DNA of 64,000 bases, taken from positions 463,938 to 527,937 of the forward strand of contig CAJIYI010000001.1 of the NCBI GenBank assembly GCA_905181595.1, read 5' to 3'. The notes under the pieces were generated by a model that worked only from the letters and a program-made list of their open reading frames with translations, searched no databases and was not told the origin of the DNA. A program made the translations under genes and the position numbers. The stretch comes from an uncultured SAR86 cluster bacterium (GTDB lineage Bacteria; Pseudomonadota; Gammaproteobacteria; Magnimaribacterales; D2472). Positions 44,970 to 47,629 of the stretch are shown here, piece by piece (within the stretch, counting starts at the first letter, position 1; every line of letters starts with the position of its first letter).

Positions 44970-45731
44970 ATGGTAGTAGTTAGACTTGCAAAAAGCGGAG
45001 CGAAAAAAAACCCTTATTACTTTATAACGGTTGCCGACTCCAGAAAACCTAGAGATGGCGGATACATTGAGCGTTTAGGATTTTTTAATCCTTCGGCCAA
45101 AGGTTCCGAGGAAAGATTGAGATTTAATCTAGAGCGTTTCGATCATTGGGTTACTCAAGGCGCCCAAGCTTCAGATAAAGTATCTGAGTTAGTTAAAGAT
45201 GCGCGTCTTTCTCCAGAGGACCTTCAAGTAAAATTAGATGCCAAACAAGCTAAAAGAACACAGAAGAAAGAAGTTTTAGCAGCTCAAAAAGTAGCAGAAC
45301 TTGCTGCTCAAGCAGAAGCTGATGCTAAAGAAGAAGCAGAGGCAGCTCCTGAAGCAGAAGTAGCAGAAGAAGCAGCTCCTGAAGCAGAAGCAGCTCCTGA
45401 AGCAGAAGTAGCAGAAGCAGAAGCAGCTCCTGAAGCAGAAGTAGCAGAAGAAGCAGCTCCTGAAGCAGAAGTAGCAGAAGAAGCAGCTCCTGAAGCAGAA
45501 GTAGCAGAAGAAGCAGCTCCTGAAGCAGAAGTAGCAGAAGAAGCAGCTCCTGAAGCAGAAGTAGCAGAAGAAGCAGCTCCTGAAGCAGAAGTAGCAGAAG
45601 AAGCAGCTCCTGAAGCAGAAGTAGCAGAAGAAGCAGCTCCTGAAGCAGAAGTAGCAGAAGAAGCAGCACCCGAGCCAGAAGTAGCAAAAGAAGAATCTGA
45701 AGCAGAATCTTCAGATGATGAGAAGCAGTAA
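44970..45731 (+). CDS. rpsP: Ribosomal protein S16 with long repetitive acidic tail
   Basis: S16 is a 30S assembly protein. Residues 1 to about 78 are a normal S16 core ([43 protein letters not shown]). After a short lysine-rich linker (about 80-108), residues about 118-240 are a Glu/Ala/Pro tail made of a ten-residue unit, [10 protein letters not shown], repeated about a dozen times, ending ESSDDEKQ. Homologues are 80-150 residues; this one is 253. The tail has almost no basic residue. It is probably disordered. The core is certain; the exact tail length depends on the repeat being correctly assembled. Confidence 0.95.
45342..45690 (+). repeat. 30-bp coding tandem repeat in rpsP
   Basis: The unit AAGCAGCTCCTGAAGCAGAA plus GTAGCAGAAG recurs with an exact 30-base period. 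Eight copies at 45421-45660 are identical base for base. Two or three imperfect units precede them and one degenerate unit follows. The period is a multiple of three, so copy-number change keeps the frame. The opposite strand has a long open frame coding poly-leucine only because of this repeat. Confidence 0.97.
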
Positions 45732-46254
45732 GTCTCCGGACCTATCTTTATTTCTTCTTATTGCCAGAATTGGCAAAACTCGAGGATTAAGAGGTGAATT
45801 TTTTCTTAGATCCTTTGCAGAGAATCCACAAAGTTTAAATACATTCACTAAATTTTATACTCTAAGTTCTTCGCTAATGGAAGAGGTCGATCTAGAGTAC
45901 ATAAAAACCTCAAACTCAAATCTTATTTCTAAGATTAAATCAATTGATGATATAGATGCCATTAAGTCGTTTGGCCAAAAAGATGTATATGTTCTTAGAT
46001 CTGAACTTCCTCTGCTTGAAGAAAATGAAGCTTACTGGTTTGAGTTAATTGGTATGGATGTAGTAAATCTTGATGAGCAATTTCTTGGCGTTGTTGATAT
46101 TGTTAATAATTATGGCGCCAGTGATATTTTAGAAATAACTCCATCATCAAATAGAAAAGAAAAAATACTCATACCATTTATAAGAAATAAATTTATTATT
46201 TCAATTAATAAATCTAAAAATTCTATACTTGTCGACTGGGAAGAAGATTACTAG
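45715..46254 (+). CDS. rimM: Ribosome maturation factor RimM
   Basis: RimM helps 30S head assembly and binds S19. The protein is 179 residues: N-terminal RimM barrel with [22 protein letters not shown], then a PRC barrel with [12 protein letters not shown] and the ILIPFIRN patch. The start at 45715 (or the adjacent ATG at 45718) lies inside the end of rpsP, a 17-base overlap, indicating coupling of rpsP and rimM. Confidence 0.93.
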
Positions 46255-46264
46255 ATTAAAACTT

Positions 46265-46975
46265 ATGAATATAAATATTATTACTTTATTTCCAGAAATT
46301 TTTTTAGCCTTAAATTCAGGTCTACTAGGCCAAGCAATTGAAAGAAAAGATATTGTAATTAACATTGTAAATCTTAGAGACTATTCAATGAATGAATACG
46401 GTCAGGTTGACGATAAACCTTATGGTGGAGGGGAAGGCATGGTCTTAATGGCCGAGCCTCTGGAGAGATCTATACAGAGTATACCTAGTGATAAAAGAGG
46501 TAATATCGTTAACTTATCACCTCAAGGTGAGAAGCTCTCTCAATCAAAAGCTCAAGAGTTATCAAAATTAGATAATTTAACCATTATTGCTGGAAGGTAT
46601 GAAGGCATTGACGAAAGAATCATCAATCAATATGTGGATGAGGAAATCTCGATAGGTGATTTTGTTTTGAGCGGAGGAGAATTTGCTGCACTAACACTAA
46701 TAGATGTATGTGCAAGGTTTATTCCAGGAGTCATAGGCAATAATAAGTCAGTTGAACTGGATAGTTTTAGCGCTGGATTGTTAAAGGGGCCTGTCTTTAC
46801 CAGGCCTGAAAAATATAACAATGAGCCTGTTCCAGAAATACTATTATCAGGCAATCATGCGCTAATTCAGGAATGGAAAGATGAACAATCTTTATTAAGA
46901 ACCCTCGAAAGGAGACCTGAACTGCTAAATAATATAAAATTAACAAAAAAACAGAAAAAACTCTTGGAAGATTAA
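46265..46975 (+). CDS. trmD: tRNA (guanine-N1)-methyltransferase TrmD
   Basis: TrmD makes m1G37 in tRNAs, preventing +1 frameshifting. It is 236 residues from ATG 46265 (MNINIITLFPEIF). The SPOUT knot is marked by AGRYEGIDERI and SIGDFVLSGGEFAAL, with the substrate segment DDKPYGGGEGMV and PVFTRPEKY. It starts ten bases after rimM. A longer upstream reading inside rimM is rejected. An intact trmD argues against a general frame-maintenance defect as the reason for the broken frames in this window. Confidence 0.96.
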   Translation: MNINIITLFPEIFLALNSGLLGQAIERKDIVINIVNLRDYSMNEYGQVDDKPYGGGEGMVLMAEPLERSIQSIPSDKRGNIVNLSPQGEKLSQSKAQELSKLDNLTIIAGRYEGIDERIINQYVDEEISIGDFVLSGGEFAALTLIDVCARFIPGVIGNNKSVELDSFSAGLLKGPVFTRPEKYNNEPVPEILLSGNHALIQEWKDEQSLLRTLERRPELLNNIKLTKKQKKLLED

Positions 46976-46994: not shown

Positions 46995-47034
46995 ATCACA
47001 TTTTTAGGTAAAGCATCACATTTTTAGGCAAAGT
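46995..47034 (+). repeat. 20-bp tandem duplication upstream of rplS
   Basis: Two adjacent 20-base copies, ATCACATTTTTAGGTAAAGC and ATCACATTTTTAGGCAAAGT, differ at two positions and end one base before the rplS start codon. The second copy supplies the only AGG-like ribosome site of rplS. It may be a recent slippage duplication or a regulatory element; no stem-loop is evident. Confidence 0.85.
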
Positions 47035-47035
47035 C

Positions 47036-47629
47036 ATGGCAGATAAAGATAACGAAAATACGGAAAACACAACTGAAGAAGTGGTTGAAACTAATGAAAC
47101 TGTTTCAGATGATGCTGTGGAAGTAGAAGAGTCTTCAGAAGCTTCTGCAGAAGCCGTGGACGAGACTCCAGCAACCGACGATGTCTCATCTGATGAAGAG
47201 CCGGAAACTGCAGAGCTAAGTGCTGAGGAAGCTCCTGAGGAGGAAGTTCAAACTGCTCCTATAACTGTCGATGAAAAATCCCCTGCTCAAATTATTAATG
47301 CATTCGAGTCGAATCAATTAAAAGCTGATATCCCATCATTTAGACCTGGTGATACTGTTGTTGTTTCGGTTAAAGTCCAAGAAGGTGACAGAACTAGATT
47401 GCAGGCATTTGAAGGCGTTGTTATGAATATCAAGAAAGCTGGTTTAAATTCTGCATTTATTGTTAGAAAAATTTCTAGCGGCATAGGGGTAGAAAGAACA
47501 TTCCAAATGCATAGCCCGCTTATAGATTCTATTTCAGTTAAGAGAAAAGGTGATGTAAGACAAGCAACCCTTTACTATCTTAGAGAAAGATCAGGTCGAT
47601 CAGCAAGAATCAAAGAAAGACTAGATTAA
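47036..47629 (+). CDS. rplS: Ribosomal protein L19 with acidic N-terminal extension
   Basis: L19 lies at the 30S-50S interface. The ordinary L19 core begins near residue 84 ([22 protein letters not shown]) and runs to the end ([31 protein letters not shown]). Ahead of it is an extension of about 83 residues rich in Glu, Asp, Thr, Ser and Val, with lysine at residue 4 and no other basic residue until about 81. Homologues are about 115 residues; this is 197. No internal start codon with a ribosome site at the core boundary is obvious, so the extension appears genuinely translated. Confidence 0.94.

Follow-up and report, generated by a model that had tools for sequence, protein, structure and literature searches.

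SAR86 bacteria are abundant in the surface ocean and have small genomes, as described in the main text of PMC11582366, yet the ribosomal protein bS16 encoded in the window (the whole stretch of 64,000 nucleotides analysed here, from an uncultured SAR86 cluster bacterium) is about three times as long as that of E. coli, with an acidic tail that changes fast and looks selected. The locus raises the question of how such a tail arose from a tandem repeat in a ribosomal protein gene, how widely it is kept among relatives, and whether it has a role on the ribosome.

The rpsP locus, its array and the encoded protein

The source genome (1.41 Mb, 2 contigs) groups with SAR86, and the gene order rpsP, rimM, trmD, rplS was recognized from open reading frames and Pfam/NCBIfam matches (Table 1). 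The rpsP product was matched by Ribosomal_S16 (PF00886; 1.6e-21, 76.4 bits against a cut-off of 27) and by TIGR00002 (1.1e-22, 79.8 bits against a cut-off of 45.3), and its scores for three NCBIfam groups of long S16 proteins stayed below the equivalog cut-offs (NF011093, 44.6 bits of 165; NF011094, 40.5 of 209; NF011095, 49.8 of 192). Two copies of a 20-bp element (ATCACATTTTTAGG.AAAG), which resemble a duplicated ribosome-binding site, were noticed at 46995-47033, directly 5' of the rplS start.

Table 1. Features of the rpsP region, in positions of the window
Feature	Position	Strand	Basis
rpsP, ribosomal protein bS16, 253 aa, with C-terminal tail	44970..45731	+	ORF; Pfam/NCBIfam
bS16 core, residues 1-81, net charge +5	44970..45212	+	AlphaFold, PDB sequence match, charge
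Residues 82-124, predicted single long helix	45213..45341	+	AlphaFold, block pLDDT 87-95 over residues 81-120
Acidic Glu/Ala/Pro tail, residues 125-253, predicted unstructured, net charge -49	45342..45728	+	AlphaFold, charge
Degenerate repeat copies 5' of exact array	45342..45418	+	sequence, Tandem Repeats Finder
Exact 30-bp minisatellite, 8.3 copies, in frame, 10-residue unit	45419..45667	+	self-match, Tandem Repeats Finder, shuffles
Degenerate copy 3' of exact array	45668..45707	+	sequence, Tandem Repeats Finder
rimM	45715..46254	+	ORF, domain match; candidate start inside last 17 nt of rpsP (ESSDDEKQ end)
trmD	46265..46975	+	ORF, domain match; ATG start used, upstream TTG at 46229 also listed
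rplS (bL19), acidic N-terminal extension at about residues 1-78 (47036-47269)	47036..47629	+	ORF, domain match

At a period of 30, the rpsP array matches itself over 219 consecutive exact bases, giving a span of 249 bp, and the same array was returned by Tandem Repeats Finder; with exact tandem units of at least 10 bp it is a minisatellite. Codon shuffles of the tail reached at most 29 matching bases, and synonymous-only shuffles, in which the protein was kept, at most 122 (1000 shuffles each), which implies that the DNA itself was copied and that selection on the peptide alone did not make the array. The eight identical 30-base units that a sequence-only reading had placed at 45421-45660 fall within the exact array, the degenerate copies that it described lie on both sides, and its proposal of recent copying is supported by the exact match. 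It had also taken the regularity of the array as the unusual part, which holds in so far as such arrays are rare; they are not unique, as comparable ones were found among the 84 tails measured, with a 51-bp unit in 5.8 exact copies (L099) and a 33-bp unit in 6.3 (L058), and Ala/Glu-rich S16 tails are common in bacteria according to the main text of PMC6821194. The copy number is uncertain because assemblies often fail at the array. Seven repeat units (45457-45651, minus strand) score as terminator-like hairpins, likely a by-product of the repeat.

The AlphaFold model of the window protein, built from 27 aligned S16 sequences, comprises the usual core, a confident 43-residue helix (net charge -2) and then 10-residue blocks with a pLDDT of 43-59. 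The tail proper has 129 aa, in good agreement with the approximately 130-residue extension proposed from sequence, and a pI of 4.1 (4.2 for the whole protein). An acidic, disordered tail had been expected as well, and this description suits residues 125-253, whose pLDDT is low, but not residues 82-124, which are predicted as a confident helix. The top PDB match by sequence, 9t0z chain P, aligned through query residue 122 (E 5.1e-31), so that the helix segment has a counterpart in a solved ribosome. Among solved ribosomes, long bS16 proteins occur in 7jil (188 aa), 5v93 (162 aa) and 9t0z (137 aa), all above the usual 80-90 aa; this comparison covers the core and helix (query residues 1-124).

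Distribution, turnover and replacement of the tail in SAR86

Relatives were sampled as the best 80 of 207, of which 75 were assigned to SAR86 by similarity although some are labelled otherwise (L045 as Planctomycetaceae). Within this sample, most named relatives whose S16 is closest are labelled SAR86 cluster, and the nearest one is labelled Proteobacteria bacterium UBA3413 (L031), where a run of unread bases lies inside the S16 tail array and the longest period-6 run was dismissed as an artefact of these Ns. S16 extends past residue 82 in 75/75 SAR86 loci from the best 80 of 207 relatives, and stops at 80-84 aa, with the extension absent, in 5/5 outgroup loci (L106-L110), which is at odds with the possibility, raised beforehand, that close relatives would have no tail. 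The part past residue 124 is net negative in 66 of the 67 SAR86 loci readable there, the exception (L089) being frameshifted; in the other 8 of 75, the contig stops before residue 124 and only the core and helix are visible. The whole protein is net negative in 44/44 closed undisrupted SAR86 cases, and carries +5 to +9 in the five outgroup loci. S16 was matched in 155 of 203 genomes order-wide. All 67 closed usable tails that reach past residue 105 have a net negative charge, a number in which one genome occurs twice (L104, L116) and one assembly contributes two. Among 28 non-SAR86 gammaproteobacterial loci (L138-147, L150-167), which were picked as best-scoring or long-framed and not at random, S16 has at least 121 aa in five (L146, L150, L159, L161, L163), two of which represent one small-genome family with its own short acidic repeats; extensions are thus not private to SAR86, where they are the rule. 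A scan of a viral collection with the S16 core gave 12 pattern matches and no relative.

When S16 proteins of the nearest relatives were compared, as had been suggested, the extension proved to be kept, but repeat unit, period and tail length differ between SAR86 species, with periods from 15 to 90 bp (90 being the largest tested). The expected change in length between relatives was observed in all 20 close pairs (closed non-helical proteins, core DNA identity of at least 95%), with a median difference of 42.5 aa and a maximum of 132 aa; these pairs share members and join different species, one genome present twice (L104, L116) having been removed once, and the collections hold one genome per species. 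In the pair L074 and L090, for instance, the core is 99.6% identical and S16 has 174 versus 270 aa. Below the species level, assembly G194 (50 contigs, 75% complete, 2% contamination) contains two contigs that are 98.85% identical over 1914 nt and encode S16 of 176 and 228 aa, the longer holding 15 Ns; the difference resembles variation between strains and does not prove that length varies within a clone.

The tail has also been lost or replaced. In the one-contig genome G037, S16 has 101 aa and the acidic tail is absent, two genomes of the same genus (G061, G065) have tails, and the first candidate rimM ATG, read by eye, comes after the S16 stop. A helical Val/Ala/Glu repeat with a period close to 11 residues forms the tail in genera g15 and g16, where S16 measures 347-353 aa (g15, five complete proteins read) and 325 aa (g16); just two helical pairs share at least 90% core identity, with length differences of 0 and 1 aa. 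Within the window's genus, L040 and L041 are 97% identical in the core but carry a Pro/Glu/Ala tail and a helical tail, respectively. The acidity of the tail persists while its sequence and predicted structure change. AlphaFold left 212 of 352 residues of a helical-tail S16 below pLDDT 50, and this model was taken to indicate a helical tendency only. Pfam matches over the cut-off were obtained for the helical tail of L118 (Phasin_2, 4.9e-11; Rv1893, 1.8e-12), which may be compositional, and those for L041 stayed below the cut-off. In the helical tails of L118-L123 and L030, a linker rich in Ser, Asn and Glu is followed by a conserved internal ME(K/D), as though rpsP had been joined to a separate small ORF. 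A fusion of rpsP with rimM, which constant open frames of 326 and ~385 in family f3 had suggested, was rejected, as the ORF comprises S16 plus the helical tail and rimM is separate; the single S16-RimM open frame (G176, L124) has unread bases in the tail. In L033, L089, L092 and L127, the array contains an in-frame stop or continues in another frame, either naturally or by assembly error, and the frame of L127 ends in an Arg/Ser-rich tail of ~100 aa.

Other ribosomal proteins carry comparable extensions. An acidic N-terminal extension of bL19 is present throughout the window's family wherever the start is readable, and absent in f2-f4 and in the outgroup loci seen. In the window, this extension is acidic only, without a tandem array reported by Tandem Repeats Finder; other family members (L039, L044, L061, L074, L083, L091) differ, bearing before the Glu/Ala/Pro repeats a KMKKADIV..GLELDI.LTK..LLE.W segment, which in several follows a KKKGFFSR.FG start. 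This segment might be described as SAP-like; the bL19 extension fragments tried had no Pfam family over the cut-off. The tails of bS6 are charged in the 29 readable of 30 loci, and S6 open frames in f4 genomes have only 95-110 aa. A bS6-like protein of 229 aa in G058 (L251, 1492-2181, minus strand) has an encoded EEVVEEVKEVVEKA helical acidic tail, like the S16 tail of the same genome. A search of eight genomes for EEAP(A/V)EE gave no match in four, including the source genome, and in the other four all matches fell at S16 and, by position, bL19 genes.

Assembly breakage at the array

In SAR86, contigs often end inside the S16 extension (27/75, at 307-658 nt past the S16 start, 19 past residue 124 and 8 before it), whereas only 2/75 begin less than 700 nt 5' of S16. 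In the whole-genome set, tail-facing gene sides lie within 400 nt of a contig start in 39/148 cases versus 4/148 for outer sides. The former comprise 23/87 forward cases in which rimM is this close to the contig start and 16/61 reverse cases on the tail side of S16, and the latter 3/88 and, with two weak rimM places (G098, G168), 1/60; the count uses 149 of 155 S16 genomes and 145 of 147 rimM genomes, to which the control adds the two weak rimM places. S16 and rimM are on separate contigs in 23 of the 131 genomes having both. Further breaks occur downstream: 11 of the 48 contigs that continue beyond S16 stop in the 4.2 kb that follow, 8 of them with the N-terminal extension of bL19 as their final reading frame.

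Breaks in the extension were more frequent in metagenome or composite assemblies (13/20) than in single-cell assemblies (14/55), classes that were assigned by hand from record names, single-cell origin being judged from isolate names even though many of the record titles are prefixed 'MAG:'. The higher rate is suggestive, as it is expected if populations are mixed in tail length, and other causes are possible. As rpsP is so often cut at the array in SAR86 assemblies, gene calls and estimates based on S16 as a marker can be affected. On one contig (C8 of G024; L003, L177), S16 lies at the contig end with rimM inverted ~3.4 kb off and a helical-tail piece adjoining, possibly an assembly chimera at the array.

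Probable selection on the tail and its possible role

Single-base differences between neighbouring copies were counted in 77 contributing tails of 99 (6 of 105 having been omitted for an N gap, frameshift or fusion), and 425 of 733 were synonymous (0.58), versus 0.22 expected, corresponding to a dN/dS-like ratio of 0.20 (0.17-0.21 under other window settings). Both being transitions, GAA is paired 128 times with GAG and once with GGA. The test uses a simple mutation model and non-independent counts, and registration errors inflate its non-synonymous side; the synonymous share of 58% against 22% argues that the tail peptide is probably under selection. At the 3' end of the gene, the end of rpsP is preceded by a candidate rimM start at a distance of 17, 14 or 11 nt in 43/48 cases (47 loci with a rimM match plus the window), the exceptions being L041 and the interrupted tails L031, L033, L089 and L092. 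This overlap by itself may account in part for conservation of the SS(D/E)DE.K ending, and would be consistent with translational coupling of rpsP and rimM.

The reading we favour, with a probability of roughly 0.53, is that bS16 owes a long, acidic and disordered tail, selected for its charge and acting at the surface, to the coding minisatellite at the 3' end of rpsP. Counter-evidence comes from the tail-less G037 and, barring assembly errors, from the frameshifted or prematurely stopped arrays of L033, L089, L092 and L127, and the seed unit may account in part for the similar composition of the tails. These same losses and disruptions, together with a tail length that is hardly constrained, would fit a functionless low-complexity passenger, neutrally tolerated because the S16 C-terminus is free and GAA/GCA-rich DNA slips; we regard this as possible though doubtful, as it does not account for the synonymous excess between copies, for the negative charge of all 67 closed usable tails (with the double counts given above), or for acidic or charged extensions also on bL19 and many bS6 proteins of the clade. 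It is very improbable that the array acts as mRNA or DNA (through structure, pausing or coupling to rimM) with the peptide as a by-product. The fixed overlap with the rimM start would agree with such a role, but the RNA of the array is predicted to be no more stable than shuffled versions (z +1.85; 195/200 of these equally or more stable), synonymous sites are more variable than the amino acids, species differ in period and unit, and helical tails of other sequence can replace the array.

Two further explanations concern the copy number itself. Expansion or collapse of the repeat during assembly hardly deserves credit as the source of the tail: assemblies clearly fail here, leaving the number of 8.3 copies uncertain, but S16 is extended in every one of the 75 relatives and closed acidic tails are present in the one-contig genomes G039, G041 and G044. 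A contingency locus, in which copy number would switch within a population and give heritable ribosome heterogeneity in tail length, appears unlikely; it could draw on the two length variants of G194 and on the excess of breaks in the hand-assigned metagenome or composite class, but the G194 contigs are ~1% different outside the array and thus belong at most to different strains, the estimated contamination of this assembly being 2% and the longer variant holding 15 Ns, and single-cell assemblies break too. A small probability is likewise given to the broader view that SAR86 populations have ribosomes with heritably different, repeat-tuned acidic tails on bS16 (and on bL19 in the window's family), slippage doing the job of RimK in other gammaproteobacteria; if so, the array would work as a genetic dial for the length of a feature on the surface of the ribosome.

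For a charge-selected tail, slippage or unequal recombination would change its length, and such changes would be tolerated because the units are multiples of three bases and the rpsP-rimM junction stays intact. By analogy with actinobacterial bS16, helix 82-124 would lead the tail away from the 30S body, probably along a path past uS4, and the tail might then form a brush of negative charge, tolerant of length changes, by which basic or RNA partners are repelled or recruited. In this view it would be a gene-encoded equivalent of the Glu tail added to bS6 by RimK. According to the main texts of PMC7343187 and PMC10931766, RimK polyglutamylation likewise places an acidic tail of variable length on a 30S protein, although that tail is post-translational and on bS6, whereas the SAR86 tail is genetically encoded, on bS16, and known here from sequence. 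As reported in PMC7343187, rpsF with four encoded Glu changed the translation of 159 genes, and in P. fluorescens both rpsF4glu and rpsF10glu tails affect translation, rpsF10glu to a smaller extent. RimK tails on bS6 and encoded rpsF Glu tails make an effect of the tail in SAR86 plausible by analogy. If functional, the tail would be a genetically encoded, length-variable feature of the ribosome surface and a natural test of acidic ribosomal tails.

Ala/Glu-rich tails of S16 and L19 are already known. In the main text of PMC6821194, both proteins are frequent carriers of Ala/Glu-rich low-complexity regions, 157 of 187 S16 regions exceed 70% A+E, and most ribosomal regions are C-terminal; the window's repeat unit (8/10 A+E, C-terminal) agrees with the >70% Ala+Glu terminal criterion of that study. 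The likeness lies in the S16 and L19 carriers and the C-terminal Ala/Glu-rich composition, whereas exact minisatellites, length turnover, assembly breakage, rimM overlap and helical replacement, all present in SAR86, do not appear in its section 9 and related passages, and the name SAR86 is absent from its main text. What is added here is a SAR86-wide hypervariable minisatellite with its substitution pattern, rimM overlap, helical swap and assembly consequences; no work on a tandem-repeat tail of SAR86 S16 was found among open-licence papers, and the words 'S16' and 'repeat' are absent from the main text of the SAR86 isolate paper PMC11582366.

A C-terminal bS16 extension that contacts uS4 is also described for C. 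acnes (main text of PMC10085706) and M. smegmatis (main text of PMC6133939). It is a short helix reaching uS4 in M. smegmatis, and in C. acnes its far end is unseen in the map and the extension is linked to a short h17. Such an extension is common to both groups, and the acidic part in SAR86 differs in being a variable tandem array. Compensation for a short h17, as proposed for C. acnes, was ruled out, since h17 in SAR86 has the E. coli length, with 65 nt between E. coli positions 433 and 497 in 8/8 aligned SAR86 16S sequences, as in E. coli and 4/4 other gammaproteobacteria.
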